Source: Gammaproteobacteria bacterium
GTDB lineage: Bacteria > Pseudomonadota > Gammaproteobacteria > QNFE01
Assembly (NCBI GenBank): GCA_003645455.1
Contig: QNFE01000013.1
Coordinates: 1 to 39,881, forward strand
Reading direction: 5' to 3'
Length of the DNA stretch: 39,881 bases
Shown in pieces: positions 10,676-35,453 of the stretch. The notes under the pieces are model-generated. The model was not told the DNA's origin, made no database searches, and was given only the letters and a program-made list of their open reading frames with translations. The translations under genes and the position numbers were made by a program. Positions within the stretch are counted from its first letter, which is position 1. Every line of letters starts with the position of its first letter.

Positions 10676-10998
10676 ATTTTATAACACTGCAAAGAATTAC
10701 AAGCATACGATAGTATTTCCTTGAATTTGATTGTATCAATTGTTGCTAACAACTTGGCGGTTTTAATTATTTTGCAATCTATTGCACTGATTTTTGGCAC
10801 AACAACTACTGATTCTTTTTTTAAAAATCCACTTTCTAAATCAGAATTATTTAACCTAACTCCATCTCTTGTTAAATTTGATGTAAGCGGTAAAAATAAA
10901 AAATCATTTTGCAGTTGGTGAAAAACTAAAACCGGTCTGCCTTTGAGTTTGCTAAAATCTGAATATGGAATTTCAACATAATATATGCCTCTTACCAT
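10672..10998 (-). CDS. MazF/PemK-family toxin
   Basis: A 108-residue protein starting MVRGIYYVEIPYSDFSKLKG then RPVLVF. This is the conserved opening of PemK/MazF endoribonucleases (GxIxxVxFPYSD...KxRPxLV). It is followed by a FLFLPLTSNL strand and a C-terminal helix. The family cleaves mRNA at short motifs. It overlaps the antitoxin upstream by 7 bp and rfbC downstream by 4 bp, so the TA pair is translationally fused into the rml operon. Family assignment is by motif. Confidence 0.8.
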   Translation of the reverse strand: MVRGIYYVEIPYSDFSKLKGRPVLVFHQLQNDFLFLPLTSNLTRDGVRLNNSDLESGFLKKESVVVVPKISAIDCKIIKTAKLLATIDTIKFKEILSYACNSLQCYKI

Positions 10999-11231
10999 TT
11001 TGAATAATCCTCATCGTCATCATCAAAATCATTAGAAGATAACCCAATAGTGTTGTTAGCAAAATTATCTAATTCGTTATCGCTCCAATATTGCCAATTT
11101 TGAGATCCGTCTGGCGATTTTTTACTTGTTTTATTTTCTACTATCATTACATCATTTGTTGAAAAATTTTTTAACAAATTTATAATTTTATCAAAAACAC
11201 TATCATTTATGTGCAACTTTAAACTGTGCAT
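10992..11231 (-). CDS. Antitoxin for the MazF-like toxin (shared N-terminal module type)
   Basis: A 79-residue protein. Residues 1-28 (LKLHINDSVFDKIINLLKNF) match the N-termini of two other antitoxins in this window, at 34245-34472 and 35095-35319. The tail is acidic and ends DDDDEDYSKW, like the toxin-wrapping ends of MazE-type antitoxins. The DNA-binding/oligomerising role of the N-terminus and the toxin-binding role of the tail are inferred. It is preceded by a 39-bp gap after rfbA containing TATGAT, a possible own -10 box. Confidence 0.7.
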   Translation of the reverse strand: MHSLKLHINDSVFDKIINLLKNFSTNDVMIVENKTSKKSPDGSQNWQYWSDNELDNFANNTIGLSSNDFDDDDEDYSKW

Positions 11232-11270
11232 ATTTTATTCCATAAAAAAAGATTATCATACCATAAAAAA

Positions 11271-12155
11271 TTATTTTTTACCCACAACCTGCTCAATTAG
11301 ATACTGGCCGTATTGGTTTTTAGACAGAGGTTCGGCAAGTTTTAATAACTGCTCCTTATTGATATAACCCATCTGAAAAGCTATCTCTTCAATACAGGCA
11401 ACTTTCAAACTTTGGCGTTTTTCAATTGTTTGAATAAATTGTGATGCCTCCAACATTGAATCATGCGTGCCAGTATCAAGCCAAGCAAACCCACGACCCA
11501 TCAGTTCCATTTTTAATCTATTTTCATTCAAATAATCCGCATTCAAAGTTGTTATCTCTAACTCCCCTCGTGCAGATGGTTTGACATTATGAGCCTTTGC
11601 CACGACATCGTTAGGATAAAAATAAAGCCCCACCACCGCATAATTTGATTTTGGTTTGTCTGGTTTCTCTGCCAAACTTATGACATTACCATCACCATCA
11701 AACTCTGCCACGCCATACGATTGTGGGTCTTTGACATAATAACCAAACACGGTAGCTTTATTTTCAACACGAGCATTTCGGACCGATTTATGCAATAAAT
11801 CAACTAATCCTGCACCATAAAAAATATTATCGCCTAACACCAGACAAACATCATCATCACCACCGATAAAATCCGCCCCCAAAATAAAAGCCTGTGCCAG
11901 TCCATCAGGAGAGGGTTGAATTATATATGAAAATTTCATACCAATCTCCGTGCCATCACCTAATAAATCTTTAAACCTTGGCAAATCAGTCGCGGTCGAG
12001 ATAATCAAAACCTCCGTAATACCTGCCAGCATCAACACCGACAACGGATAATAAATCATCGGTTTGTCATAAATTGGCACCAACTGTTTTGAGACCCCCT
12101 TGGTAATAGGATAAAGCCGTGTGCCGGACCCACCTGCCAAAATTATTCCTTTCAT
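11271..12155 (-). CDS. rfbA: Glucose-1-phosphate thymidylyltransferase
   Basis: First step of dTDP-sugar synthesis: dTTP + glucose-1-phosphate. The 294 residues begin [20 protein letters not shown] (nucleotide-binding loop). They contain [24 protein letters not shown] (metal Asp), [18 protein letters not shown] and [16 protein letters not shown] strong AGGAG lies 8 bases before the ATG. Only 10 bp separate it from the ATPase gene upstream, so it probably shares that gene's consensus promoter at 13480-13508. Confidence 0.96.
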
Positions 12156-12165
12156 TTATACGCTC

Positions 12166-13455
12166 CTAAAAAATTTCCGAATCCAACAAAAACTCAAATA
12201 ATGGTTTTATGATAACTCTTTTATTGTTTATTTTCAAAATTTCATCATGGTCATTGTTTATCAGATAACTTTGATTTAATTTGAAATAATCCATAGCTTC
12301 CATAAGACCTGCTATTTCTCTTTTTTTTGTGTCTGGATTGGTGATATCATAACTGACATTGATTAAAATTTTCTTATTATTTAATCGGACATAAAAATCC
12401 ACCTCTTGCTTTTGCTTGTAATAATAAATTTGTGAACTCATGCGTCGCAAATGCAAAAATACCACATTTTCATATAATTTACCCATATCATCGTCAAAAG
12501 CATAGTCATATATTTTTTTAAATCCGTTATCGATGGCATACATTTTTTTGGGATTTCTTTGCTGTTGTTTGATAGAGTTGCGATAAATTGGCACAACAAA
12601 AAGAGCAAAAGCATCTTCTAAATGAGACACATATTCATAAATTGTATCTTTGCTTAATTTATAACCTTGTGATTTAAAATTATTAAAAAGCTTGTTAAAA
12701 CTTATCAAGGTAGCAATATTATTAAAACAATATTTGGTTAAAATTTTCAGCAAACTTCTATTTTTTACATTATGTCTATCAACTATATCTTTATATATAA
12801 TCAACTCCAAATAATCACTTAATATTTTTTGTGATATCATCTGGTCTTGATTGATAGTTTCAGCAAAGCCACCATTGATAAGATAATCTGATAGAGCATT
12901 TTTAATATAACTTAGTTGTTTAGATGAGTTAAAATTGATGGCAATGTTTTTATACGACAAATACTCTTTGAACGAAAATGGATATATTTCATAAGTTAGC
13001 GTGCGTCCTCGCAAACTTGTGGCAATTTCGGTGGACAAAAGTTTGGCAGATGAGCCTGTGATATAAATTTGAATATCTGATGTATCATATATGCGCCGAA
13101 CATATAATTCCCAGTTGTCAACCACTTGCACCTCATCCAAAAACAGATATATTTTTTCATCTCTTTTGGCAGGATATAATTCATAATAAGACTCAAGCAG
13201 TGAATCAAGATCTTTCAAACCCAAAGGATATAATCTATCATCTTCAAAATTGACATAAATTATATTTTCTCTGACTACTTTTTTTCTCAACTTATCGACA
13301 ACATCAAAAAGAATAGAAGTTTTGCCCGCACGACGCACCCCAATTAAACAAATAACTTTATTAGATTCAAGCGGAATTTGATATTCTCTTGGCAGAATAT
13401 CATTCATATCTCTTTCAATAAAATCAACAATAATTTTTTTAAACTGCTTTTTCAT
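12166..13455 (-). CDS. AAA ATPase with DUF4143-type C-terminal domain (copy 1)
   Basis: A 429-residue ATPase of the AAA_14/DUF4143 group. Walker A is GVRRAGKTS (about 38-46) and Walker B YLFLDEVQ (about 103-110), with the sensor segment YITGSSAKLL near 130. The C-terminal half carries the DUF4143 signature, including YAIDNGF and a nuclease-fold-like EVDFYVR region near residue 355. These proteins are widespread, often near TA or mobile genes; function is unknown. Translation starts at an ATG preceded by AGAGGA. It has a consensus sigma-70 promoter with an embedded dyad. It is only distantly similar to the copy at 13970-15253. Confidence 0.85.
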   Translation of the reverse strand: MKKQFKKIIVDFIERDMNDILPREYQIPLESNKVICLIGVRRAGKTSILFDVVDKLRKKVVRENIIYVNFEDDRLYPLGLKDLDSLLESYYELYPAKRDEKIYLFLDEVQVVDNWELYVRRIYDTSDIQIYITGSSAKLLSTEIATSLRGRTLTYEIYPFSFKEYLSYKNIAINFNSSKQLSYIKNALSDYLINGGFAETINQDQMISQKILSDYLELIIYKDIVDRHNVKNRSLLKILTKYCFNNIATLISFNKLFNNFKSQGYKLSKDTIYEYVSHLEDAFALFVVPIYRNSIKQQQRNPKKMYAIDNGFKKIYDYAFDDDMGKLYENVVFLHLRRMSSQIYYYKQKQEVDFYVRLNNKKILINVSYDITNPDTKKREIAGLMEAMDYFKLNQSYLINNDHDEILKINNKRVIIKPLFEFLLDSEIF

Positions 13456-13479
13456 TTTTTATCCTCTTAAAAAAGGACA

Positions 13480-13508
13480 ATTATAACCATTTTTGTCCTT
13501 CTTGTCAA
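13480..13508 (-). promoter_or_regulatory. Consensus sigma-70 promoter with iterated operator-like sites
   Basis: On the minus strand TTGACA (13508-13503) is separated by exactly 17 bases from TATAAT (13485-13480), a perfect consensus promoter 25 bp upstream of the ATPase ATG. The octamer AAGGACAA occurs three times across it in alternating orientation: 13473-13480, 13493-13500 (as TTGTCCTT) and 13507-13514. The inner pair extends to a perfect 11-bp inverted repeat, TTTTTGTCCTT and AAGGACAAAAA, around 6 bp (13490-13517). This overlaps the -35 box and spacer, as expected of a repressor operator. Confidence 0.85.
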
Positions 13509-13640
13509 GGACAAAAATAAACATCAAAGCCACAGGATAAAATTATTTCTTTGTCATCAATTTTTTTATACTATTTAATATTTTTTCCAACTCATTTTTT
13601 GATAAAATATACACTATTTTCTTATTGCTCTAAATCACAC

Positions 13641-13660
13641 TTGAATTATACAAAGGTCTC
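13641..13660 (-). repeat. Solo end of the GAGACCTTTG element
   Basis: Read on the minus strand this is GAGACCTTTGTATAATTCAA, sharing GAGACCTTTG and the following ATAA with the element at 1298-1370. No inverted partner is seen nearby. It adjoins the 3' end of the MNT gene and may be a remnant of transposition. Confidence 0.5.
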
Positions 13661-13663
13661 ATA

Positions 13664-13951
13664 TTAAAGTTTTATTCCCCATGCTCTTGCCTCCTTTTCT
13701 ATCAACCTGTTTTCATCAAAATTAAATATAATATCAATTTTCTGCTCACCTAATTCCTTTTTTATTTTTGCCAAAAATTTCAATTTCTTTTTGAATATAT
13801 TTATTTTGTTTTCAATTACCAAAAACAAATCAATGTCTCCGCCTTTTTTGCTGTCATCAACCCTTGATCCAAACAAATAAATTTCACCTTTTTGAAACAC
13901 ATCATTAAAAGATTTTTTAATTACTTGGACGTATTGTTTGTTTAATCTCAT
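13664..13951 (-). CDS. MNT-type minimal nucleotidyltransferase
   Basis: A 95-residue protein with the pol-beta-fold motif GEIYLFGSRVDDSKKGGDID (GS...DxD: Gly-Ser at about 29-30 and catalytic Asp residues in GGDIDLFLV). These proteins usually pair with a HEPN protein (HEPN/MNT toxin-antitoxin, where MNT AMPylates HEPN). No HEPN gene follows; instead there is a 208-bp gap and then the ATPase. A strong AAGGAG precedes the ATG, and the DUF4143 ATPase copy 2 lies just upstream (18-bp gap). It may be an orphan, or may work with one of the ATPases; that is speculation. Confidence 0.8.
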   Translation of the reverse strand: MRLNKQYVQVIKKSFNDVFQKGEIYLFGSRVDDSKKGGDIDLFLVIENKINIFKKKLKFLAKIKKELGEQKIDIIFNFDENRLIEKEARAWGIKL

Positions 13952-13969
13952 TTTTTTAACTCCTTGAAT

Positions 13970-15253
13970 TCACATCATAATTGCAACACTTGCACTAAAA
14001 AAATCCCAAAATGGCACTATCAAAATATCATCACAGTCATTTTGTTTTATGCTGTTTTTATCCTGATTATAGGTAAGCAGAATTTTTTTATCTGTTTTGA
14101 TTTTTAATTTTTTTAAACCAGCCATTTCTCTTGTGATATTTTGATTTGTCAGTTTATAACATACCTGTATGGCTATAATTTTTTCATTTTTAATGCAGAT
14201 AAAATCACATTCAGAGTCTTTGTTGTGATAATATATTTCAAACTCTTGTTTTAAAAGCTCTGTATAAACAAGATTTTCAAATCTTTTGCCGAAGTCTTTT
14301 GAAAACCTAAAAGATGTTTGGCTCAAAAAACTATTATCACTTATATATATCTTTTTTTTGGTTTTTATCTGCTCTTTTAAAGAATAAGAATATTGCTTTA
14401 TTTCATTGCATAAAAAACTATCAATCAATATTTTTATATACTCTTTTACGGTATTGTCATTTATGTTTAAAACTCGAGCAATAGAGTTGTAAGAATATAA
14501 ATTAGTGCTATTAGATATTATAAAATTTGTAACCTCTTTGAAAGTTTTGCTGTCTCGCAGATGATTATTAGCGACACAATCTTTAAAAATAATAGTATCA
14601 TAATAACTTAAAATTATATCCCTTTTGTATTTTGCCTCATCCATAACCTCAACAAATGAACCAAAATTCATCATATCGTCTATGATGTTTAACAACTTAG
14701 CTTTATTTTCCAACAAAGCCTGCCTATCATTTATTTTATTTATAGCAACAATCTCCGCAAAAGATAGCGGATAAATTGTCTCTTGGATATATCTGCCACT
14801 TAGCAGTTTTGCATATTCCCCATCTAACAAAGATGAGTTCGAACCTGTAATAAATATTTTTTTCACAACCTCATTATCATAGATTGCTTTGACAAATTTT
14901 TCCCAATAGACAACATTCTGCACTTCATCCAAAAATAAATATTGCACTTTTGTGCCGGTTATTTTCTCACTTAATTCCAACAGAGTATAAAGATTTTTAC
15001 TATCATTACAAATCTCACTAAAATATGGATCATCAAGATTGATGTATAAAACTGATTTTTTATCAACCGTTTGGACAAGATGATTGATAAGCAATTTAAA
15101 CAAAGTAGTTTTGCCACTTCTTCTGATGCCTTTTAAAACCTGTATATGTTTGAGGTGCAACTTATCAACAATAGTTTTAAATCTATCTCTATTATAAAAA
15201 TTATAAGACCGCCTTTGCCAATGCGGATTATGATTTAAGATGGCTTTTTCCAT
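13970..15253 (-). CDS. AAA ATPase with DUF4143-type C-terminal domain (copy 2)
   Basis: A 427-residue protein. Walker A is GIRRSGKTTL (about 42-51) and Walker B YLFLDEVQNV (about 106-115), followed by IFITGSNSSLL and a GRYIQETIYPLSFAE segment typical of the AAA_14/DUF4143 family. The C-terminal region has a YISDNSFL signature and an ECDFI...IAIQVCYKL stretch resembling a PD-(D/E)XK core. AGGAAG lies before the ATG. It has its own promoter and a dyad in the leader. It neighbours the MNT gene and copy 1, forming a small ATPase-nucleotidyltransferase island inside the sugar locus. Confidence 0.84.
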   Translation of the reverse strand: MEKAILNHNPHWQRRSYNFYNRDRFKTIVDKLHLKHIQVLKGIRRSGKTTLFKLLINHLVQTVDKKSVLYINLDDPYFSEICNDSKNLYTLLELSEKITGTKVQYLFLDEVQNVVYWEKFVKAIYDNEVVKKIFITGSNSSLLDGEYAKLLSGRYIQETIYPLSFAEIVAINKINDRQALLENKAKLLNIIDDMMNFGSFVEVMDEAKYKRDIILSYYDTIIFKDCVANNHLRDSKTFKEVTNFIISNSTNLYSYNSIARVLNINDNTVKEYIKILIDSFLCNEIKQYSYSLKEQIKTKKKIYISDNSFLSQTSFRFSKDFGKRFENLVYTELLKQEFEIYYHNKDSECDFICIKNEKIIAIQVCYKLTNQNITREMAGLKKLKIKTDKKILLTYNQDKNSIKQNDCDDILIVPFWDFFSASVAIMM

Positions 15254-15275
15254 TATATACTTCCTAAAAAATTAG

Positions 15276-15303
15276 ATTTTTACTAATCATAGTTAGTAAA
15301 AAT
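15276..15303 (-). promoter_or_regulatory. Operator-like 11-bp inverted repeat upstream of ATPase copy 2
   Basis: ATTTTTACTAA (15276-15286) and TTAGTAAAAAT (15293-15303) form a perfect inverted repeat around 6 bp, starting 22 bp before the ATG. Arm and spacer lengths equal those of the dyad at ATPase copy 1 (11-6-11), and both arms contain TTTTT, though the cores differ. It could be a repressor site or an mRNA hairpin next to the ribosome binding site. Confidence 0.6.
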
Positions 15304-15308
15304 TAACA

Positions 15309-15335
15309 TTATAAACATATTTTACAATATGTCAA
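15309..15335 (-). promoter_or_regulatory. Promoter for ATPase copy 2
   Basis: Minus-strand TTGACA (15335-15330) and TATAAT (15314-15309) match both consensus hexamers but with a 15-bp spacer, which is short. The predicted transcript would start within or beside the adjacent 11-bp dyad, an architecture suggesting repression at the start site. Confidence 0.6.
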
Positions 15336-15349
15336 GCATTATGGATATT

Positions 15350-15455
15350 TTAACCAAAAACAATGGCTTTACAAAACTGTTTTTTCATTTTTTATCCTCT
15401 TGAAAAGAAGCTATTACAATCATTTTTGTCCTTCTTGTCAAGGATAAACAAACAT
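15350..15455 (-). pseudogene. Decayed duplicate of the ATPase copy 1 promoter and first codons
   Basis: The stretch 15386-15455 repeats 13453-13525: the leader (ATCCTCTT), the TTTTTGTCCTT arm, and the -35 TTGACA (15441-15436), again with a 17-bp spacer. The -10 has become TGTAAT, and the right dyad arm has changed to AAGGATAAAC. The ATG at 15388 opens a frame MKKQFCKAIVFG that stops after 12 codons, compared with MKKQFKKIIVDF at copy 1. So this is the 5' stump of a third ATPase gene, or a duplication product. Confidence 0.75.
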
Positions 15456-15512
15456 CCGACCCAATCTGGGCAGATTTTTTTGAATGATTATGTTATTTTG
15501 CTAACCAAGACT

Positions 15513-16262
15513 CTATTTTTTTACAAACTGCAAAATTTTAGAAAGCGGTTTCATTATAAACATAAAAGGATTTATAGATAATCCATTTATCCGCCATGCT
15601 TTATAACTTTCTATGTTAGCTTTTATTATATTTTTTATGCTACTGTTGCTCTTTCCGCCTAACCTCATTTGGACTAAAACCTGCGGAATGTAAGATGAGT
15701 TGATTTTATATTTTTCTAAAAATCTTAACATCAGTTCGTAATCTGCGGCGATTTTAAAGTTAAGATTAAATAAACCATATTTTTGATAAATTTCTTTTTT
15801 GACAAAAAAAGTTGGATGAGCAGGATGCCAACCATTTTGAAAAAGTCCATTTTTATATGGTTTTGACCTCCAATATCTTACAATCTTGTTGACATCAGAT
15901 GCACTTACATATTGCAAATCGCCATACACACAATCAACTTTTGTCATTGCAAATTCTTTGGCAATCTTTTCTATAACAAACTCATCTTTATAAAAATCAT
16001 CACTATTTAACAAACCTATAACATCACCTGTTGCTAATAATATACCTTTATTCATAGCATCATAAAGTCCATTATCAGGTTCACTAATGAACTTAGTGAT
16101 TTCATATCTATAGCTTTTAATTATATCTATAGTTCCATCTGTTGAAGCACCATCCATAATGATATGCTCAATATCTTTATGTGTTTGGCTCAACACCGAC
16201 TCTATAGCATCTCGTATAGTCCAAACATTATTATAAACTACTGTTATAACAGAAATTTTCAA
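15513..16262 (-). CDS. Family 2 glycosyltransferase
   Basis: Cytosolic, membrane-associated GT-A enzyme that adds a sugar to the lipid-linked repeat unit. It opens with KISVITVVYNNVWTIRDAIE, contains MDGASTDGT and a NSDDFY metal-binding motif (about residue 88), and has YWRSKPYKNG and AADYELMLRF in the acceptor half, as in WcaA-like enzymes. The frame allows a TTG at 16268, but the second TTG at 16262 gives the normal N-terminus MKISV with a better 9-10 base spacing from GGGAG, so it is preferred. It is the last gene of the AT-rich block; the acceptor sugar is unknown. Confidence 0.86.
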   Translation of the reverse strand: MKISVITVVYNNVWTIRDAIESVLSQTHKDIEHIIMDGASTDGTIDIIKSYRYEITKFISEPDNGLYDAMNKGILLATGDVIGLLNSDDFYKDEFVIEKIAKEFAMTKVDCVYGDLQYVSASDVNKIVRYWRSKPYKNGLFQNGWHPAHPTFFVKKEIYQKYGLFNLNFKIAADYELMLRFLEKYKINSSYIPQVLVQMRLGGKSNSSIKNIIKANIESYKAWRINGLSINPFMFIMKPLSKILQFVKK

Positions 16263-16315
16263 AATCAAATCTCCCTTTCATTTAAAATTAAACATTGGTA
16301 TTGTGATTGGTAATT

Positions 16316-17515
16316 TCAAATTTCATCTCCTACATCATAAACAAACTTTGGCTTATATCCACCATTTAATATATACTCGTATAGTTTTTTCATCTTGCTT
16401 GCTTGATATTTCCACTCATATTTTTTAATCAACTCATAACCATTTAAACCTTTTTGTTTCAACTCTTCATCACTACAACTTAAAGCTTCTTCTATTGCTA
16501 CACTAATATTATTTTGAGATAATTCTACCCACCAACCAGCACCTTTTTCTTCTATCTCTTTCCATGGTGTTCCATGTGTTGTAATCACTGGTAGTTTTGT
16601 AGCCATCGCTTCTGCTATAGCTATACCAAAGTTTTCCGTATGACTAGGAAGTACAAACAAATCAGATGCTCCAAAACTATCAACTCTTTTCTCACCAGTT
16701 ATCATGCCTGTAAAAGTAACTCTGTTTTCTAAATTAGCTTTTTTAATTCTTTTTTTTATATCTACTATATACTTCTCATCATACACTGGTCCAACTATTA
16801 ACAAATCCCATTCTTTATATTTATTAGCTAAACTAATCCATGCATCTGTAAGATACTCTAATCCTTTTTTAGGATGAAGTCTTGACATAAACAAGATATA
16901 TTTCTTATCAACATCCAATCCAAAGCTTTTTTTAGAATCAATTTTATTTTTAATATTTTTAAATTCTTCAAAATTAATACCATTTGGCACTATAGCAATA
17001 GGTATTTTTATTCCTAAATCTCGGACTGCCTTAAGTTCATTTATCTCCGTAACATGAATACAAGAGGCATTTCGTAAAGCTTTTTCTTGAAATAATTTCC
17101 AAGCAATAGTTTTTTGCAATTTCCCTTGTAACAATGACCATTTATACAAAGACCCTCTAATAGCCAATATCAAAGGAACATTATACTTCTCACCCATTTT
17201 AAAAGCTACATAAGGTATATAATTCCAAAGATTATGAGTATGTAAAATTATATTTTTTTCATTCTTCAAAGTATCATTAAGGTATTTTTTTAACCCCAAT
17301 GAATGTCTTATCTTTTTAATAAAATCATATTTAAAAGATTTCCATACAAGTTTATATTCATCTACTAAACTATTGATTTCATTTTTATTATATTTTACAG
17401 ATAAAATTTCTGTATCTATATCTATATCATTTAAGTATTTACACATATAAGGTACTGATTTTGCAGGACCTCCATAGGTGTTATCTAGATTTTCTATTAA
17501 ATTAATTATTTTCAT
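16316..17515 (-). CDS. Family 4 (GT-B) glycosyltransferase
   Basis: A 399-residue retaining glycosyltransferase. The N-terminal half has the GGPAKSVPYMCKYL loop and the donor half shows LFMSRLHPKKGLEYL, LIVGPVYDEKY, VTFTGMITGEKR and the E-x7-E motif PSHTENFGIAIAEAMATKLP (about 294-313). The C-terminal helix is present. It overlaps the 691-aa gene upstream by 4 bp. Probably adds an internal residue of the repeat unit; donor unknown. Confidence 0.88.
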   Translation of the reverse strand: MKIINLIENLDNTYGGPAKSVPYMCKYLNDIDIDTEILSVKYNKNEINSLVDEYKLVWKSFKYDFIKKIRHSLGLKKYLNDTLKNEKNIILHTHNLWNYIPYVAFKMGEKYNVPLILAIRGSLYKWSLLQGKLQKTIAWKLFQEKALRNASCIHVTEINELKAVRDLGIKIPIAIVPNGINFEEFKNIKNKIDSKKSFGLDVDKKYILFMSRLHPKKGLEYLTDAWISLANKYKEWDLLIVGPVYDEKYIVDIKKRIKKANLENRVTFTGMITGEKRVDSFGASDLFVLPSHTENFGIAIAEAMATKLPVITTHGTPWKEIEEKGAGWWVELSQNNISVAIEEALSCSDEELKQKGLNGYELIKKYEWKYQASKMKKLYEYILNGGYKPKFVYDVGDEI

Positions 17516-19587
17516 TTATTCTTTTCCTTATAATTATCCAGAAATACAATATAATCATAAATATTTATAACATTGTCTGTATTCATCTTTGTTCTAACTA
17601 GTTTTTTTAAAATATCAATAAAATTATCATCCATATATTTTTCAACTATTAATTCTAATGGTAAAAATAACATTTGATTTAAAATTATTTTCATATTAAA
17701 ATCTTTGCTGTTTGATAGTTCACCAATAATAGACTGAAGGTCATCAAGATATTTATTGGCTTTTTTAAAAGAGTCTATATCGTCATAGGTTATATTTGGA
17801 TTAATCTCAAATCTTATTTGTATTAAAGACAAGAGTAAATTACTAGGTATATTATTCATAATTGAATACCAATTATTAGTTGAAACAGAAATTTTTATAA
17901 TATTTTCTTTATTATATGCTACTTTACTTTTATCTTTATCGAATGTTAATAATTTATATTTTATTAAATTTCGCTCATGTTTTAAAAGTTGTTTTTGTGA
18001 AAAGCCAAATGACAAAACTAAATCTTTTAAAATATTTGAGTTATATCCTGAAAACGATTTATTTGTTAAGTATTTATTTTTATTCTCTATAAAAATAATA
18101 TCATTATCTAATTTAATTACTAAATCACTTTCTGGATTTTCTTTTTTAGGAGGTCTATAATTACCTGAAAAAAGCTCATAGTTATGTTTGTCTTTTATTG
18201 TTTTAAAAATATCCTCTACAAATACATCTATATTACTACCAATTTTTTCGTTTATTTTCTTATCTAGTATTGATTTTATTTTTTCTATTAATGAATTATA
18301 AAAATTTAACTTAAAATACTGAAATCCTATAATATAAAATTTATTTTTATATTTTATTATTGGGTTCATTACAAAAATATTTTCAATTTTATCTAAATTT
18401 GCTGCTGTTGTATAATTAGTATTAATATTTTTTGCATCTACCGAAAAGAGTTTTAATATATTTAATTCATTATTGTGAATATTGTTTTCTTCAAAAACAA
18501 TTACACTAGTTGGCTGTCTATCTAACAGTTTTACAAATGTACTTAAATCTTTTATGGAAAAAGAAAACTTTTTAAAAAATAAACTATTGTCTATACTAGG
18601 GCTTATAATATTATCTAAATACTCCAACAATGTATTTGTCTTTAACTTATGTATTGAATAAAAATTTGAATATAAAATTTGTTTTTTTAATATTTTCATG
18701 ATAGTATATTCTGTCATATTCATATTTTCATATTGATTTTCAGCTGTTAATTCATACAATGATATAAATGAACATATTAAATCAAGCATTTTTTTGATTT
18801 TAATTTCATCAGTTATTTTATGTTTAGCCATAGATATATTTTTAATTAATAAATTTATAATATATTTGTATGGAAAGTTAATCTCAAATCTATGATTCTT
18901 TTGATTTATACTTTTATATTCAAAGACATACTCTAAAAAGTAAAATAAGTTATACGATGATAACTTTTTTTCTATCTTTTGTACAATTCTCTCTTCTTGG
19001 TTCTTCCTAAATATTACTTTACCATCTATAATGTCTATGTTTTCATTTAAAGTATTTTCTATGTTCTCTTTTGATTCCACTAAATTTGGTATAGTTTTAT
19101 TGAATTTATAATAATTTTCATCACAACAGGTACTATACAAGTTAGTATTCATTAAATTTAATAAATATATCTTTTTGATTAATTTTTCCCAAAATGTATG
19201 ATTTGATAAGCTCATTATTTGTTGCTCTTTATATATACCATAGTATCTCAAAGCTTGTACAATAGAATAGTACAATTTAGCCGTATCTTTATCATATTTT
19301 TTAAAATAATAATCTATTTCTATTTGTTTTAAAATATTATCTAATACACTCATGTCCATAGTAAAATCTTTTTTACTTTTTTCTATAAATAGTTTGATAT
19401 TTTCTTGAAATATATTATCTAAGTTATAATTCTGTTGTTCATATTTAATATCATAGTCATCTAGTATTTTATTTTTCACTTTTTGTAAATTATTAGATTT
19501 TATTGCCTCCAATTTATTAAAATAATCTATATTACTATTCAGTACTATTTTAATTAAAGTTATAAATTTATCTGTATTATTTATCAT
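17512..19587 (-). CDS. Large uncharacterised protein with PD-(D/E)XK-like nuclease core
   Basis: A 691-residue, very AT-rich gene with no close relative that I recognise. Residues about 440-540 look like a restriction-endonuclease fold: a helix with Glu458 (DVFVEDIFKTI), Asp488 in ESDLVIKLDNDIIFI, Glu501 and Lys503 (IENKNK), and a following helix with FSQKQLLKHERN. This gives D-x12-E-x-K plus a downstream Gln. The N-terminal ~430 residues are mostly helical and lysine/asparagine-rich, with no transmembrane segment. It overlaps wzy upstream by 11 bp and the glycosyltransferase downstream by 4 bp, so it is built into the operon. Nuclease activity is inferred; role in polysaccharide synthesis unknown. 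Confidence 0.65.
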   Translation of the reverse strand: MINNTDKFITLIKIVLNSNIDYFNKLEAIKSNNLQKVKNKILDDYDIKYEQQNYNLDNIFQENIKLFIEKSKKDFTMDMSVLDNILKQIEIDYYFKKYDKDTAKLYYSIVQALRYYGIYKEQQIMSLSNHTFWEKLIKKIYLLNLMNTNLYSTCCDENYYKFNKTIPNLVESKENIENTLNENIDIIDGKVIFRKNQEERIVQKIEKKLSSYNLFYFLEYVFEYKSINQKNHRFEINFPYKYIINLLIKNISMAKHKITDEIKIKKMLDLICSFISLYELTAENQYENMNMTEYTIMKILKKQILYSNFYSIHKLKTNTLLEYLDNIISPSIDNSLFFKKFSFSIKDLSTFVKLLDRQPTSVIVFEENNIHNNELNILKLFSVDAKNINTNYTTAANLDKIENIFVMNPIIKYKNKFYIIGFQYFKLNFYNSLIEKIKSILDKKINEKIGSNIDVFVEDIFKTIKDKHNYELFSGNYRPPKKENPESDLVIKLDNDIIFIENKNKYLTNKSFSGYNSNILKDLVLSFGFSQKQLLKHERNLIKYKLLTFDKDKSKVAYNKENIIKISVSTNNWYSIMNNIPSNLLLSLIQIRFEINPNITYDDIDSFKKANKYLDDLQSIIGELSNSKDFNMKIILNQMLFLPLELIVEKYMDDNFIDILKKLVRTKMNTDNVINIYDYIVFLDNYKEKNK

Positions 19588-27640: not shown

Positions 27641-27643
27641 TTT

Positions 27644-28351: not shown

Positions 28352-29445
28352 TACACTAATTCTTTAACTGCTTTTACAATATACTCTACATCACTTTTTT
28401 TAATATCAAAATAACTAGGTAAATTTATACCTCGTTGATATACCTTATGAGTAATTGGTGTATCACAATTATCATACATAGGCATATCTGACACAGGATA
28501 AAAGAAAGGTCTACTATCTATGCCTTGTTTTTTTAAGTTTACTATAAATCTATCCCTTTGTTTTTCTTTATATCTATCAAATTCAATACACACCATCCAA
28601 TAAACATTTTTATACCCATCTTTTTGAAAGTTTAATTTTATATTAGATATATCTTTTAAACCATCTTGATACCACTCAAATATCTTTTTCTTTTTTTCTA
28701 ATAATTCATCAATTCTATCAAATTGGGCTACACCTAATGCAGCTTGAATATTTGTCATACGATAGTTAAAACCAACTTCAGTATGCCAATATCTTTTATT
28801 TTTACTCATGGCATGATCTCTTAAAAGTTTCATTTTATCATATAGTTTTTTATTGTTTGTAGTTATTATGCCACCCTCACCAGATGTTATAATTTTATTG
28901 CCATAAAAACTAAAAATCCCAGCATCGCTTAATCCACCAACTTTTTTACCATTTACTTCTGCTCCATGAGCTTCTGCTGCATCTTCTACAACAAATAAAT
29001 TATATTTTTTAGCTATTTTGTTTATAGCGATCATATCTGCTGGATGACCATACAGATGAACAGGTATAATAGCTTTAGTCTTAGCTGTTATAGATCTCTC
29101 TATTTCTTTTGGATCTATGCATAAAGTATCTTCTTCAATATCTACTGTTACAACTTTTGCGCCTATATATTTTACAGCACTACCTGTTGCTACAAAAGTA
29201 AAATCTGGAATAATTACTTCATCTTCACTTGTAATGCCTAACGCAACTAAGGTTAAATGTAATGCTGTTGTTCCATTTGATGTTGCAAGTGCATATTTAG
29301 TATTACAATATTTTGCAAATTTTGTCTCAAATTCATCTATATATTTTCCTAAAGATGAAACCCAGCCTGATTTAATAGCATCTGTAACATAATCTATCTC
29401 TTTTTGAGTTATACTTGGTTGTGATATTGGTATAAATTTATTCAC
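28351..29445 (-). CDS. DegT/DnrJ aminotransferase, GDP-perosamine synthase-like
   Basis: A 364-residue PLP enzyme of the sugar aminotransferase family. The opening FIPISQPSITQKEIDYV then SGWVSSLGKY, plus NGTTALHLTL, VVEDAAEAHG and the Schiff-base lysine in SFYGNKIITSGEGG, are the pattern of perosamine synthases (RfbE/Per), which aminate GDP-4-keto-6-deoxymannose. The maker of that substrate, gmd, lies upstream, which supports GDP-perosamine. fcl competes for the same intermediate. It overlaps fcl by 1 bp. The exact sugar product is inferred. Confidence 0.85.
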   Translation of the reverse strand: MNKFIPISQPSITQKEIDYVTDAIKSGWVSSLGKYIDEFETKFAKYCNTKYALATSNGTTALHLTLVALGITSEDEVIIPDFTFVATGSAVKYIGAKVVTVDIEEDTLCIDPKEIERSITAKTKAIIPVHLYGHPADMIAINKIAKKYNLFVVEDAAEAHGAEVNGKKVGGLSDAGIFSFYGNKIITSGEGGIITTNNKKLYDKMKLLRDHAMSKNKRYWHTEVGFNYRMTNIQAALGVAQFDRIDELLEKKKKIFEWYQDGLKDISNIKLNFQKDGYKNVYWMVCIEFDRYKEKQRDRFIVNLKKQGIDSRPFFYPVSDMPMYDNCDTPITHKVYQRGINLPSYFDIKKSDVEYIVKAVKELV

Positions 29446-30446
29446 TAATCATTATCCTTATTATTTAGATACCACTCGTATAAAAATTGAATTCCATCCC
29501 CCAAATCAACTCTATGTCTCCAGCCTAAATTATGTAATTTTGTAGGATTAGTGAGTTTTATCATAGTTCCATCTGGTTTGTTTTTGTTAAAATAAAGTTT
29601 GCCATTATAGCCTATTATTTTTTTTATTGTATTAGCCAATTCTTTAATTGATATATCTTCACCTGTGCCGATGTTGATGTGGGTATTGCGGATTTGTTTT
29701 GAGATTGCCACGTCGCTTTGCTCCTCGCAATGACGGTCAGCAATTAAATCTTGGAAATTTATGTTTTGCATAATGAATATACAGGCATCAGCCATATCTT
29801 CGCTATATAAAAATTCTCGTCTCGGTTTGCCGCTTCCCCATATCTCTACTTGCTTGCTATTATTTATTTTCGCCTCGTGCATTTTACGAATCAGTGCTGG
29901 TAGGACATGTGAGGTCTCTAAGTCAAAGTTATCATTTGGTCCATATAAATTTGTCGGCATTACAGATATGAAGTTTGTGCCATATTGAATATTATAACTT
30001 TCACACATTTTTATACCAGCTATTTTTGCTATCGCATAGGGTTCGTTGGTATATTCTAATGGTGATGTAAGTAAACTATCCTCAACCATAGGTTGGGGGG
30101 CATTTTTTGGATATATGCAGGTGCTACCTAAGAATAATAATTTTTTAACTTTGTTTTTATAACTTTGATGGATTATGTTGTTTTGAATTTGCAGGTTTTG
30201 GTAAATAAAATCGGCACGGTATTTGTTGTTCGCCTCTATGCCGCCGACTTTGGCTGCGGCGAGGATTACATATTCTGGTTTTTCTTTTTTGAAAAATTTT
30301 TTGACTTTTTTTTGGTTTAATAAGTCTAATTCTTGATGAGTTCTGTGGATTATATTTTTATAACCTTTTTGTTGTAGATTTTTCATTATAGCCGAACCCA
30401 CTAATCCACGATGACCTGATAGGTAAATTTTGGCTGATTCATTCAT
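29445..30446 (-). CDS. fcl: GDP-L-fucose synthase with an in-frame repeat insertion
   Basis: Epimerase/reductase converting GDP-4-keto-6-deoxymannose to GDP-L-fucose. The extended SDR shows [14 protein letters not shown] (N-terminal NADP loop), LGSTCIYP, the YAIAK catalytic pair and [14 protein letters not shown]. Its 333 residues exceed the usual 310-320. The excess is in a segment [16 protein letters not shown] (about residues 238-253), translated from a dispersed repeat, just before the conserved INIGTGED strand. The frame stays open, so the enzyme may still fold. The start overlaps the ORF6N gene by 4 bp. Confidence 0.92.
29701..29735 (-). repeat. Dispersed repeat copy inserted within fcl
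   Basis: Read on the minus strand it begins CGTCATTGCGAGGAG and ends GTGGCAATCTC, the same family as the copies at 6168-6289. It is translated as part of Fcl ([12 protein letters not shown]). The reading frame is kept. Confidence 0.9.
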
Positions 30447-30823
30447 TTTGTTTTTTTATTTTTTTTCAAAGTGTGTTTGAATTTTAGGACGGCAAGATTT
30501 AACTCTATTGTTCTCTCTGATTCGATGTTTTCTAAACTATCATCCAATATATCGGCTATCAACTCGCCTGATTTTTGCATTATTGTTTTTGATAACTTTG
30601 CGGTGGAAAATTTCCACCGCAAAGTTTTAAGCTCTTCATCTGATATTTCAAACACATATTCTTCTGGGAATTTATTAATATTATTCTTTACAGCTTTGTT
30701 AATATCCCTTGCTTCAACTGAATATAATTTAGCAACATCGCTATCCAATATTATATCCTCATCTCTTATTTGGATTATTTTATTTTCAATGCTTGTTATT
30801 TCAATGGCTTTTATTGGTTTCAC
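30443..30823 (-). CDS. ORF6N-domain protein, shortened
   Basis: A 126-residue protein. Residues about 8-75 match the ORF6N domain of phage/plasmid regulators: [48 protein letters not shown]. The usual continuation with a YLPYxFTEQGVAML stretch is missing; instead it runs into [20 protein letters not shown] and then [16 protein letters not shown], which resembles the later NSERAIxVNIxIMR segment. So an internal part seems lost. It overlaps gmd (4 bp) upstream and fcl (4 bp) downstream. Role in this operon is unknown; it could be a regulator or a domesticated mobile gene. Confidence 0.72.
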
Positions 30824-31911
30824 TCTTTGCCACCAAAATTGTTGTACTCTAAGTCATATTTAACCATACCTGATACTAAATCTTTGAATGAAATTTTCCT
30901 CTGCCAGCCGAGTTCTGCCTCCGCCTTTGCAGGGTCGCCCAATAATAACTCCACCTCAGCAGGGCGGAAGTATTTTTTGTCTATCTTAACGACTGTTTTG
31001 CCTTTTAATTGTTTTACTGTTGTCGTAGAATTTTGGACTTTTTTGTGGAATTTATCCTCATCAATTTCGTCAATTATTCCTATCTCGTTTATATCTTGTC
31101 CTTGCCATTTTATAATTATTCCTACCTCTGCAAATGCAATTTGGACAAATTCTCGCACTGTGTGAGTCTCACCGGTGGCAATTACATAATCTTGCGGTTT
31201 TTCTTGTTGTAACATTAACCACTGAGCATAGACAAAATCTTTGGCATGTCCCCAGTCTCTTTTGGCGTTCATATTGCCTAATTTTAAATCTTGTTGCTCT
31301 CCTTTGGCGATTTTGGCAACAGCTTTGGTTATTTTTTTGGTAACAAATGTCTCGCCTCGCCTGGGCGACTCGTGGTTAAATAAAATCCCATTGCAAGCAA
31401 ACAAATCATATGATTCACGATAATTAACCGTCACCCAATAGGCATATAATTTGGCAGCTCCATATGGGGATTTGGGGTAAAATGGAGTAGTTTCAGATTG
31501 TGGTTCTGTGCCTGGGATGCCACCAAATAACTCAGATGTAGAGGCTTGATAGTATTTGCAATCTATATTTTCATCACGGATAGCATCTAATAACCTTATC
31601 GCTCCTGTGCCTACCACCTCTGCGGTATACTCTGGCACTTCAAAAGAGACTGCCACATGAGATTGAGCACCGAGGTTATAAACCTCATCTGGTTTTATTT
31701 TAGCAATCAGTCTGTGTAGATTTGATGAGTCGGTTAAATCACCATGATATATTTTCAAATTTGGGTTATTGAAAATATGGTCAATTCGCTGGGTAGTAAA
31801 AACCGAAGCACGGCGGATTATGGCATGCACTTCATAGCCTTTTTCTAATAAAATTTCAGCCAAATATGAGCCGTCTTGTCCGGTTATTCCTGTTATAAAT
31901 GCTTTTTTCAT
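30820..31911 (-). CDS. gmd: GDP-mannose 4,6-dehydratase
   Basis: Converts GDP-D-mannose to GDP-4-keto-6-deoxy-D-mannose, the branch point for GDP-fucose (fcl) and GDP-perosamine (aminotransferase). The 363 residues begin with [20 protein letters not shown]. They have the STSELFGG active-site strand, the [10 protein letters not shown] catalytic Tyr/Lys, and [16 protein letters not shown], all diagnostic of Gmd. Length is normal. A TATAAT sits about 30 bp upstream of the ATG. manC ends 30 bp upstream. Confidence 0.95.
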
Positions 31912-31940
31912 GATTTTTAAGTTTTGGTTAAAAAACAGAC

Positions 31941-31946
31941 ATTATA
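31941..31946 (-). promoter_or_regulatory. Probable -10 box upstream of gmd
   Basis: On the minus strand AGGTTATAATGTC contains a perfect TATAAT 29 bp before the gmd ATG, overlapping the manC stop region. No good -35 is seen at 17 bp. The same AGGTTATAATGTCAG string is found in the two TA-associated repeats near 34655 and 35420, so it may be a recurrent promoter core in this genome. Confidence 0.45.
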
Positions 31947-33336
31947 ACCTATCACGATTAAAATCATCATCATATCTTTTTATGTCATCTTCTCCGGTGT
32001 ATGAGCCTACCTGCGATTCTATTATTATCAAAGGTTTATCTGTAAGATTTGATAACCTATGTTTGTCGCCTGCTTTGATATAGGTTGATTGGTTTTCTGC
32101 AACTTTAAATGTTTTGTCGTTTATCGTAACTGTTGCTTCGCCTTTTACCACCACCCAATGCTCGTTTCTGTGTTTATGGCTTTGCAGGCTTAGTCTTTTT
32201 TGCGGTTTTACTTTTATTTTTTTGATTTTATAGCCTGTTTTGTCCTCCAACACCGTATAACTGCCCCATGGTCTATAACCTGTTAAATGAATATTGTGTA
32301 GTTGTTGGCTTTTATCTTTTTTTATCTCTGCGACTACTTGTTGGACTTTATTTGATGAGCCTTTTTTTGATATCAACAGGGCATCTCCGGTATCAACTAT
32401 TATTGTATCTGTAATATCTATCGTTGTGATTTTACGATCGTTGCCATAGATTAGATTATTTTTACTATCCACTCCTATATACTCTTTGTTTTTGGTATTA
32501 TTATTTTTATCTTTTGGTAATTCTTTAAAAAGTGCATCAAAACTACCCAGATCAGACCAGCCTATATCCGAGAGCACAACTTTTACCTTATTGCTTTTCT
32601 CCATCACGGCATAGTCAATACTGTCTGCTGGAATATCTGCCATTTTTGATTTTTCAATTACAAACATTGAATTGTTATTATTTGTTATGCCATCAAATGC
32701 AATTTTTGATTTTTGATAAATTGTTGGTGAATGTTTTTGCAGCTCATCTAAAAACACTCCGGCTTTAAACATAAACATCCCAGAGTTCCAGTAAAAATTA
32801 CCTTTTTTTAAGTATTTTTCTGCGGTTTTTATATCTGGTTTTTCAGTAAAACTTATTACATTTTTATTATCAGATTCAATATAACCATATTCAGTGTTGG
32901 GGTGATCTGGTTTAATTCCAAAAGTTACCAGATTATTTTGCTCGGCTAATTTTTGGGCTTGTTTGATGACTTTTTGATATTGCTTTTCATTTTTTATTAG
33001 ATGATCAGATGGCGTTATCAAAACAATATCATCTTTATTAAGAGACAGACAAGCAAGAGTTATAGCAGGAGCTGTATTTCTGCCAATCGGTTCTAATAAA
33101 TATTTTATATTAACAAGTTTATCATCTTTTAATTCATCTATTTGTTCGTGGGCGACAAAATACTGTTCGGTATTTGAGACGATTAAACTTTTATCGCAAA
33201 ATTTTTTATTTCTTGTCGCCGTCAGTTGAAATAAAGACCTGTTACCAAACAATCGGACAAATTGTTTAGGCATAAGAGTCCTGCTTATCGGCCAAAGACG
33301 TGTACCAGACCCACCACATAGAATTATATTTATCAT
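31942..33336 (-). CDS. manC: Mannose-1-phosphate guanylyltransferase / mannose-6-phosphate isomerase
   Basis: Bifunctional enzyme making GDP-mannose. The N-terminal pyrophosphorylase has LCGGSGTRLWPISR (about 5-18), LEPIGRNTAPAITLA, TPSDHLI and FTEKPD. The C-terminal cupin has YRPWGSYTVLED, the QSHKHRNEHWVVVKG metal-binding histidines, and a TYIKAGDKHRLSN tail, as in type II isomerases. Full length at 464 residues. It feeds gmd immediately downstream. Just upstream lies the broken 3' end of a UDP-sugar dehydrogenase gene. Confidence 0.95.
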   Translation of the reverse strand: MINIILCGGSGTRLWPISRTLMPKQFVRLFGNRSLFQLTATRNKKFCDKSLIVSNTEQYFVAHEQIDELKDDKLVNIKYLLEPIGRNTAPAITLACLSLNKDDIVLITPSDHLIKNEKQYQKVIKQAQKLAEQNNLVTFGIKPDHPNTEYGYIESDNKNVISFTEKPDIKTAEKYLKKGNFYWNSGMFMFKAGVFLDELQKHSPTIYQKSKIAFDGITNNNNSMFVIEKSKMADIPADSIDYAVMEKSNKVKVVLSDIGWSDLGSFDALFKELPKDKNNNTKNKEYIGVDSKNNLIYGNDRKITTIDITDTIIVDTGDALLISKKGSSNKVQQVVAEIKKDKSQQLHNIHLTGYRPWGSYTVLEDKTGYKIKKIKVKPQKRLSLQSHKHRNEHWVVVKGEATVTINDKTFKVAENQSTYIKAGDKHRLSNLTDKPLIIIESQVGSYTGEDDIKRYDDDFNRDRL

Positions 33337-33351
33337 AGTTTTTTTTAAATG

Positions 33352-33489
33352 CTACAACCTCTCATCACTATTATCCAAAATTGACTTAATATCATAAACT
33401 ATTTGATTTTTATTATCCAACTTAATCTCTTTGAATTTATCATGGGCGACTGCAAGAACTATCGCATTATAATTAGAATTGCTAAACAT
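33352..33489 (-). pseudogene. 3' fragment of a UDP-sugar dehydrogenase
   Basis: From an ATG at 33489 with a strong GGAGG 8 bases upstream, a 45-residue frame reads MFSNSNYNAIVLAVAHDKF then KEIKLDNKNQIVYDIKSILD. It ends at a TAG 15 bp before manC. The YxAIVLAVAHDEFK...VIYDIK pattern is the C-terminal NAD-side end of TviB/WbpA-type UDP-hexosamine dehydrogenases (about 430 residues), so roughly nine tenths of the gene are absent. The good ribosome site means a small peptide could still be made. Confidence 0.72.
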
Positions 33490-33867
33490 TTTTATCCTCC
33501 ATTGTTTTATATTTATCATTTTACTTGTCAATACCCTATATGCGGAAATAGATACGGTTGCATTATAGCTATTGTCTTTTATCTAACCTTTCTATAAATT
33601 CAAAAGATCCGATATCTATCTTAGAAAAAGCAAATACTTTTTTGCCTAGATCTTTTAAACTTGCCCCCAAATGATAAACAATATTTTTATCTATTATCAA
33701 AAATCTATCATGAAATTTATTTGATTTTCTAATAGTTAAGTTACCGTGCTGTTTTTTATACTTTTCAATATCTAATTTTAATTGTTTTGATGTTGATTGT
33801 GTGATTATCATAAACTTTATATCTTTAAATTTATTGTGGGCGACTGCAAGAACTATCGCATTATAAT
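33443..33867. repeat. Direct repeat pair of 31 bp in the UDP-sugar dehydrogenase remnants
   Basis: An identical 31-bp stretch starting TGGGCGACTGCAAGAACTAT occurs at 33443-33473 and 33837-33867. Both copies encode YNAIVLAVAH on the minus strand. They flank about 360 bp that includes the ORF6N-tail fragment, as left by an insertion or tandem duplication followed by decay. Confidence 0.9.
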
Positions 33868-33880
33868 GTTTTGGCTGCAA
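33569..33880 (-). pseudogene. Chimeric remnant: UDP-sugar dehydrogenase piece fused to an ORF6N-protein tail
   Basis: A 103-residue frame. Residues 5-22 (HYNAIVLAVAHNKFKDIK) repeat the dehydrogenase C-terminal motif. From about residue 24 it changes to STSKQLKLDIEKYKKQHG, NKFHDRFLIIDKNIVYHLG and ASLKDLGKKVFAFSKID, the C-terminal domain that follows ORF6N domains in phage-like regulators. The junction lies at the end of the 31-bp direct repeat. Neither parent domain is complete. It sits just after the vapC frame (1-bp gap), which may be coincidence. Confidence 0.7.
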
Positions 33881-33881
33881 T

Positions 33882-34245
33882 TCAAACCCCTAATAATTTT
33901 AAATTTAACTCTGTTATATTTTTTAATCTAATGTCGTTTGTAAGCAACATTGCATTGTGTGAAATACAAGTAGCAACAATAATCGCATCAGGCAATTTGA
34001 TTTTATATTTTTTTCTAATTTTTATTACTTTGTTTGTGATATCCTTATCTATGTATACCGCTTCAAAATATAACAAGAAGTTTTTTATAAAGTTTTCTTC
34101 CTGTTTGTTCTGAAAATTATATCCTAAGATTTCCATACAAGTGATTATGGAGATGGCATATTTTTTGTTCTCATCAATAATATCGTCTATATTTATAATT
34201 TCTTTTGATAGGTATATAACTACATTTGTGTCTAAAAAAAATCAT
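33882..34245 (-). pseudogene. VapC-type PIN-domain toxin, frameshifted in an A8 tract
   Basis: Starting at the ATG at 34245 (overlapping the antitoxin stop as TAATG), the codons give M-I-F-F and then a wrong frame, because the plus strand has eight A at 34234-34241. With seven, the product reads MIFLDTNVVIYLSKEIINID and continues without a break into MEILGYNFQNKQEENFI, KLPDAIIVATCI and LLTNDIRL, a complete PIN domain of about 120 residues with Asp4 and the late acidic residues. So only one base separates an intact toxin from a dead one. It may be a true mutation, a slippage-controlled gene, or a sequence error. PIN toxins are RNases. Confidence 0.82.
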
Positions 34246-34472
34246 TACCATTCGTCTCGTTGTTGTTTTTGCCATTGCATTGGGTCATCAATGGCTTTGA
34301 AAACGTCTACATTTTTTGTAGCAAAAAATTCTTTTATTGAGTTTTTTGTAGTTGTTTTGGCTCTCTTTTGTTTTTTTTCAATTACTTTTAAGCCATTTAA
34401 TTTTAAATTATTTAACAAAAACATTACATTGTTATAAATGTTGTCATCTATTTGTAAATTTACACTTTTCAT
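34245..34472 (-). CDS. VapB-like antitoxin (shared N-terminal module type)
   Basis: A 75-residue protein. Residues 1-25 (VNLQIDDNIYNNVMFLLNNL) match the shared N-terminus seen in two other antitoxins in the window. The tail ends DDPMQWQKQQRDEW, like antitoxins that partner PIN toxins (DPxxWQxxxRxEW). AAGGG is placed 8 bases before the ATG, and a TATAAT lies at 34498-34493. The stop overlaps the vapC ATG by 1 bp. If the toxin is inactive the antitoxin could still act on other modules through the shared domain; that is speculation. Confidence 0.72.
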   Translation of the reverse strand: MKSVNLQIDDNIYNNVMFLLNNLKLNGLKVIEKKQKRAKTTTKNSIKEFFATKNVDVFKAIDDPMQWQKQQRDEW

Positions 34473-34544
34473 TTTATAGCCCTTATCAGTTTATTATATT
34501 AACTCGGCAGTTAAATACATGTCTCCAACCCTGCACAAGAACCA

Positions 34545-34566
34545 ACAAGGGGGCATGCCCCCTTGT
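34545..34566. repeat. Second copy of the CAAGGGGGCATGCCCCCTTG palindrome
   Basis: A perfect 22-bp palindrome with the same 20-bp core as the hppA-sat site at 4178-4203. Flanks differ. It lies about 70 bp upstream of the vapB-like ATG, between the RelE gene and the antitoxin, where it could end transcription coming from the right. Confidence 0.85.
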
Positions 34567-34754
34567 CAAAAAAGAGATATTTATTGTTGCCAGTTTAATA
34601 ACTTGCCACAAAAACAATCCCACCGTCTCTTTTTTATTCTTAAAATACCTGACATTATAACCTAATTTAAAAACAACACTCTGTTTTATTAAATATGCAC
34701 CCATCAACTCTACATACAAATCAAATCAGGAAAAATCATCATAAATAGATTTGT

Positions 34755-35105
34755 CTACCTATGGTAATGTTTTTCGATTGCCTCCATAATTTTTTCATCT
34801 ATTTGTTGTTCTGGTATATTTTCAAGATCTGATTTTGAATATATAGATAACAGCACTATGTTATTATTTTCATCATTTTTTAGATAAATAACCCTATATC
34901 CTGAACTTTTTCCTTTATTATTGTCGCTATTTTTTAATCTAATTTTGTAACAATTTTTACCTATATGAACCGATGAATCGTTTACAGTCAGTGCAGACAA
35001 CATCTCCAATAAAATTTTATAATCTGTTCTAATGTTTTTGTATTTTTTTGATAATTTTTTTAACTCTTTTTTGAAGGTATCGACCGCTACAATATTACAA
35101 GTCAT
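34755..35105 (-). CDS. RelE/ParE-family toxin
   Basis: From the ATG at 35105 this is a 116-residue protein. It shows the RelE/ParE pattern: VAVDTFKKELKKLSKKYKNI, then a GKNCYKIRLKN strand, GYRVIYLKNDENNNIVLLSI, and YSKSDLENIPEQQI near the end. Some members cleave mRNA on the ribosome, others attack gyrase; this one is close to the mRNA-interferase kind with YSKSD. The frame is open to 35123, but the 11-bp overlap with the antitoxin from 35105 is the normal TA arrangement. Confidence 0.82.
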   Translation of the reverse strand: MTCNIVAVDTFKKELKKLSKKYKNIRTDYKILLEMLSALTVNDSSVHIGKNCYKIRLKNSDNNKGKSSGYRVIYLKNDENNNIVLLSIYSKSDLENIPEQQIDEKIMEAIEKHYHR

Positions 35106-35319
35106 CAAGAACATCCCAAGCATTTGTCAGCGGTTTGTTATTTTTTTTAGATTCATCGGCTTCTTTCAAAGCACGGCTTACAGATACAGACAACTCATCA
35201 AGCTTAGCCAAATTATCTTGTTCTATTTTTTTTATTGTTACGTCATTTTTAAAACTACCCAGCAACCAGAGTATTTTATCTGATATGTTATCATTCATTT
35301 CTAATTGATAAGTTTGCAT
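35095..35319 (-). CDS. Antitoxin for the RelE-like toxin (shared N-terminal module type)
   Basis: A 74-residue protein beginning MQTYQLEMNDNISDKILWLL, the third example of the shared N-terminal module in this window. The C-terminus KPLTNAWDVLDDL is unlike those of the MazF and VapC partners and fits a toxin-specific tail. An AGGAT precedes the ATG and a TATAAT lies at 35366-35361. DNA binding and autoregulation are expected from TA biology but not shown. Confidence 0.72.
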   Translation of the reverse strand: MQTYQLEMNDNISDKILWLLGSFKNDVTIKKIEQDNLAKLDELSVSVSRALKEADESKKNNKPLTNAWDVLDDL

Positions 35320-35453
35320 TTTATATCCTATTTTAAAATTTTATATTTAAACATTGCATTATTATAACTCGCCACAAAACAATCTAACCATCTCTTTTTG
35401 TCATTAAAATATCTGACATTATAACCTAATTTAAAGAATAATGCCCTATTTTA

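Follow-up and report, generated by a model that had tools for sequence, protein, structure and literature searches.

The three small antitoxins AT1, AT2 and AT3, encoded in the 39,881-nucleotide gammaproteobacterial stretch analyzed here (the window), are probably members of an extensive, unnamed type II antitoxin family whose proteins are modular, with swappable heads and tails. At the level of sequence, their N-terminal heads are homologous across toxin classes, their tails are linked to the toxin, and the same tails are carried by different heads. Each antitoxin would consist of a head of about 35 residues (an extended strand, a helix and a second extended segment), a linker and a C-terminal tail that is dedicated to a single toxin family (MazF, PIN or RelE/ParE/YoeB/YafQ) and is expected to neutralize the toxin. 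The head most likely dimerizes the antitoxin and, by analogy with the N terminus of ribbon-helix-helix (RHH) antitoxins, would bind the operon's own operator. Recombination is the presumed route by which heads and tails are exchanged.

All three ORFs are encoded on the minus strand, at exactly the coordinates given by the initial annotation; translating the plus strand there gives meaningless protein sequences. Each lies directly upstream of a recognized toxin gene that it overlaps or abuts, which is the gene arrangement of type II toxin–antitoxin (TA) modules:

10672 to 10998, minus strand: MazF/PemK-like toxin (PHROG MazF, 6.3e-9)
10992 to 11231, minus strand: AT1 antitoxin, 79 aa (head profile match 1.9e-16, as a seed member), with a presumed MazF-gripping tail, W.YWSD.E.DNF...GLSSNDFDDDDEDYSKW, on the minus strand, conserved with MazF homologs
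11127 to 11231, minus strand: AT1 head, residues 1 to 35
33882 to 34259, minus strand: VapC/PIN toxin, frameshifted (Pfam PIN, 1.2e-11; frame check)
33882 to 34136, minus strand: ORF forming the in-frame remainder of this VapC/PIN toxin (Pfam PIN, 1.2e-11)
34245 to 34472, minus strand: AT2 antitoxin, 75 aa, with the tail DPMQWQKQQRDEW (Arcobacteraceae relative, 63%)
34368 to 34472, minus strand: AT2 head
34755 to 35105, minus strand: RelE-type toxin whose start overlaps the AT3 stop (Pfam RelE, 4.8e-6; ParE, 1.7e-4)
35095 to 35319, minus strand: AT3 antitoxin, 74 aa, with the tail NAWDVLDDL (tail common to L222, L223 and L224)
35218 to 35319, minus strand: AT3 head

The initial annotation had described the three N termini as alike, and its N-terminal pattern is indeed found in all of them within residues 6 to 20. 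Among the 109 ATG ORFs of at least 40 aa in the window, the pattern occurs only in these three, and none of 218,000 shuffled N termini bears it. The three toxin types named alongside (MazF/PemK, PIN and RelE) are likewise recovered by PHROG and Pfam, with the frame of the PIN toxin broken. The MazF/PemK-like gene overlaps the AT1 stop on one side and the rfbC start, by ATGA, on the other; its Campylobacterales relatives pass Pfam PemK_toxin. The window VapC retains the PIN domain itself and lacks the intact frame of VapC toxins. Just after its start codon (34240 to 34260, minus strand), a run of eight T replaces a run of seven, and AT2 is intact. Since the extra T breaks the PIN frame, the toxin is probably dead, or else the T is an assembly error; the break may represent real decay, a slippage site or such an error.

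Other features lie close to the modules. Two partial ORFs at 33352 to 33880 (minus strand) have the stretch NAIVLAVAH.KFK in common and are apparent remnants of a duplicated gene, possibly the end of a nucleotide-sugar dehydrogenase. Two ATPase genes are found near the rfb genes (12166 to 13455 and 13970 to 15253, minus strand). The former is an AAA_14/DUF4143 gene by Pfam, with a 54% relative adjoining a YoeB antitoxin locus (L061), and the latter resembles it by eye.

The homology of the heads is carried by comparisons between toxin classes. When a profile is made from the heads of a single class, it recovers most heads of the other classes: 89 of 94 with MazF only, 71 of 71 with ParE only, and 67 of 98 with YoeB only, the smallest set. 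No shuffled head out of 1050 is matched, and the top-scoring control matches shown turn out to be genuine heads translated from a more upstream ATG. Head pairs from different classes reach a mean score of 50.0 versus 20.2 for shuffled sequences, and the corresponding tail pairs score 21.1 versus 20.6. Of 105 antitoxins, 96 have a nearest neighbor by tail that is of their own toxin class, and 65 have such a nearest neighbor by head (22.8 expected). Because a mixed-class head profile had been used to assemble the 156-ORF sample described below, a further comparison was made with MazF and RelE antitoxin heads that came mainly from the toxin side. Between the heads of MazF, RelE and PIN antitoxins, hhalign gives probabilities of 97.7 to 98.6%, with 0.3% for Phd and 1.3% for an unnamed β-rich head as controls, so that the similarity does not fall to chance in profile-to-profile comparison. 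A head tree of 36 columns shows 35 changes of toxin class (minimum 5, shuffled mean 60); with 3 of its 102 branches strongly supported, these changes are not a count of exchange events.

The converse arrangement, with one tail on several heads, emerges from searches that start at the toxins. Homologs of the window MazF (44–60% identical) are encoded behind antitoxins that carry the same tail as AT1 on different heads: a Phd head in L206 (Pfam 1.2e-10) and, weakly, in L208 (probably Phd), a RelB-like head in L209, and the unnamed β-rich head in L204 and L205. The AT1-type head itself carries this tail in L207, L210 and L216. In each of these eight antitoxins, tail similarity greatly exceeds that of shuffles. 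Head similarity exceeds shuffles only where the head is of the AT1 type; L205 is marginal (p = 0.004) and is missed by the head profile. From the window RelE, the tail ...AWDLLDEL is found on an AT3-type head (L222, L223) and ...DAWKLLNEL on an RHH-like head (L224). Further RelE homologs lie behind heads that, as read from the sequence, are RHH (L225 to L227, L229, L230, L238) or RelB-like (L228, L242, L243). The proposal of a common head with swappable tails is thereby borne out: one head serves several toxin classes, tails follow their toxin, and unrelated heads can bear one and the same tail. In one antitoxin of the host genome (L008, G000:C68), a different head bears the PIN-type tail DPLEWQKNIRDEW, and the adjoining PIN gene looks internally deleted.

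Both arrangements meet at a single site. The window MazF module sits between rfbA and rfbC. In an Arcobacteraceae metagenome-assembled genome (L040), an AT1-type head joined to another tail occupies the same junction together with a PIN toxin, flanked by RfbA and RfbC that are 77% and 69% identical to those of the window. In the genome G328 (L205), the antitoxin at this junction combines the unnamed β-rich head with the MazF tail, and the toxin is a MazF 51% identical to the window's. Either parts were replaced in place by recombination or the site was used on three occasions; the DNA is too diverged to tell these routes apart, with nucleotide identity across the junction no better than that of shuffled A+T-rich DNA. 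The junction provides a clean natural comparison in which the head is constant and the toxin changed, or the toxin is constant and the head changed, and the rules of head–tail exchange are therefore directly testable there.

The head is not limited to the window. The weak matches of a single-sequence AT2 search (E = 0.04–0.7) include four further antitoxin loci next to toxins, and across the 2.06 Mb genome a profile of seven heads yields 12 matches. Non-seed heads lie directly upstream of toxins at no fewer than three loci (C68:7096, C79:2942, C14:10309), whose representatives are ParE/RelE type and YafQ type by Pfam. Within the host's class, 4 of 274 genomes carry the head, the host included; in the order of an Arcobacteraceae metagenome-assembled genome, it is present in 63 of 200, with up to 23 matches per genome. 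Single antitoxins searched against plasmid and viral collections give no match or one match each, and a cyanobacterial plasmid (Annamia dubia) encodes a YoeB-type relative of the head-bearing antitoxins that is annotated as hypothetical.

Sampling of 120 fetched stretches yielded 156 distinct head-bearing ORFs, 122 of which have a recognizable toxin directly downstream; this sample is circular in part, being drawn with the mixed-class head profile, and the toxin-first sets are not. The toxins comprise ParE (37), RelE/StbE (28), PIN (23), YoeB (14), MazF (14) and the window-type RelE (6), as clusters that were named by eye and have Pfam-confirmed representatives (ParE_toxin, YoeB_toxin, PemK_toxin, PIN, YafQ_toxin). 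By fold, they form three classes: PIN, MazF and the RelE/ParE superfamily. The heads thus adjoin PIN, MazF, ParE, RelE, YoeB and YafQ toxins and not one class only. Several loci depart from the usual arrangement. Two Arcobacteraceae relatives close to AT2 (L024, L025) are orphan antitoxins: another, longer gene follows, and no PIN gene was detected downstream. In L058 (12 to 491), antitoxin and YoeB toxin form one frame of 160 aa near a contig end. In L002 (G000:C47, about 1728 to 2260 of the reverse complement), the PIN toxin is split by a short MITE-like insert whose ends are inverted repeats (AATGAGACCTTTGCATAATTCAAG ... CTTGAATTATGCAAAGGTCTCAT); a similar end sequence recurs at window position 1356 and upstream of the antitoxins on C34 and C54.

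The initial annotation knew of no named family for the head, and searches of Pfam, NCBIfam, PHROGs, PADLOC and the PDB give it no name either. Pfam, NCBIfam, PADLOC and PHROGs return no significant family match for AT1, AT2 or AT3, and the PDB sequence search with the head profile yields nothing below E = 0.08. In the head alignment, positions 4, 6 and 8 are hydrophobic and alternate strictly with polar positions 2, 3, 5 and 7 (Q2, T3, T5 and K, N or Q7); D10 is followed by a probable helix, spanning about residues 11 to 23, and residues 28 to 31 make up a second I-x-I segment. Together, these features suggest a strand, a helix and a second strand-like segment within about 35 residues. AlphaFold models of AT2 and AT3, built from shallow alignments, are extended at residues 1 to 9, helical from residue 10 and coiled thereafter; these monomer models are weak (pLDDT 64 and 59), contain no paired strand and match no PDB fold.

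That the likeness of the N termini is convergent, with a short hydrophobic pattern of an amphipathic strand and helix that might recur in small A+T-rich genes, has a negligible chance of being correct and is already refuted at the sequence level. Shuffles never reach the pattern or the profiles, the single-sequence and profile matches in the 2 Mb genome mostly adjoin toxins, and the profiles agree at 98% between classes. A divergent RHH domain, and hence a known family that Pfam thresholds overlook, is a more serious candidate that we consider quite possible though not the likelier case. The closest resemblance of the head, albeit a weak one, is to RHH: hhalign places it at 56 to 81% with RHH antitoxins from the same collection, the alignment running from residue 1 through the strand and first helix, and a remote link is possible on these grounds. 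The N termini of L235 and L244 look intermediate, as does that of L248, and these three are useful for testing a common origin of the head and RHH. Against this reading, RHH_1 is absent among the 25 most frequent of the 94 families that match 103 members at E up to 10, and the second RHH helix is replaced in the head by the I-x-I strand-like segment and then the linker. No RHH_1, RelB or ParD profile covers the head as strand-helix-helix, and PF02604 (Phd/YefM) is not found in its N-terminal part. The RelB/ParD model NF050811 matches 4 of 103 members weakly, in the tail in the one checked, and RelN (NF050107) matches 1 of 103.

Upstream DNA bears on what the head does. Two copies of a 96-bp repeat are present:

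34598 to 34693, minus strand: repeat copy 1, upstream of AT2, with a promoter-like TATAAT
35364 to 35458, minus strand: repeat copy 2, upstream of AT3, 84% identical

The pair occurs nowhere else in the genome, which points to a local duplication. Similar operators with cross-talk between the antitoxins had been proposed, and the AT2/AT3 stretch with its promoter-like box is what speaks for a co-regulation of the three modules. The repeat is absent upstream of AT1, however, the promoter-like motif is generic (55 places genome-wide), and palindromes as long as those upstream of the host genome's antitoxins arise in 35 of 200 shuffles, so common regulation is left unsupported and is judged very improbable. 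The motif TATAATRTC...TTTTT, which had seemed enriched upstream of antitoxins, was rejected as a shared operator, as it is found genome-wide. Across all 154 upstream regions, palindromes are slightly longer than in shuffles (0 of 60 as long); no shared operator was found among the antitoxin upstream regions, a result that is compatible with individual operators. The head might instead be a dimerization or protease-recognition (degradation) module that does not bind DNA, with regulation indirect or absent, which we regard as rather unlikely. Its mean net charge of −1.4 is unusual for a DNA binder, the host genome offers no common operator or palindrome, and the window MazF module, which lies inside the rfb operon with tight overlaps, perhaps needs no promoter of its own. 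The same tails, however, otherwise sit on DNA-binding heads (Phd, RHH, RelB), suggesting an equivalent role for this head, and its polar first strand and RHH resemblance also argue for DNA binding.

That one antitoxin head can serve several toxin families is already known from RHH, AbrB and Phd (Makarova 2009, PMC2701414). In that study, RHH heads pair with RelE, PIN and MazF toxins, and AbrB/MazE heads with MazF and PIN toxins. Like RHH antitoxins (RelB/ParD/CopG; Pfam RHH_1, RelB), the present family places a small N-terminal module on toxin-specific tails, aligns weakly with them over the first strand and helix, and shares tails with RHH and RelB heads, but it has a strand-like segment in place of the second helix. 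With Phd/YefM (PF02604), it shares the MazF tail, borne by a Phd head in L206 and probably L208, whereas the heads are unrelated. It resembles AbrB/MazE in partnering MazF and PIN toxins, yet shows no AbrB match; the β-rich L204/L205 head is distinct as well. Panacea also combines one antitoxin domain with many toxin families, by another mechanism, in that the domain itself neutralizes the toxin in stand-alone antitoxins (PMC8832971, PMC10440598). In the present family, the variable tail tracks the toxin instead; this distinction is drawn from the description of Panacea, AT1, AT2 and AT3 matching no Pfam family. The head may stand in the supplementary tables of the Makarova 2009 or Panacea studies as an unlabeled cluster number.

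The head is thus a further, unnamed member among the heads spread over several toxin classes, and the kind of evolution is already known. It joins a short list of promiscuous antitoxin heads (RHH, AbrB, Phd, HTH). On a bolder and, in our judgment, unlikely joint reading, the head would be a distinct strand-helix-strand fold for dimerization and DNA binding, derived from or independent of RHH and expanded to 10 to 23 copies in some genomes of the order of the Arcobacteraceae, in which head-bearing antitoxins could form mixed dimers that link several TA modules. The modular family favored here would make many small "hypothetical" proteins annotatable as antitoxins, especially in that order.
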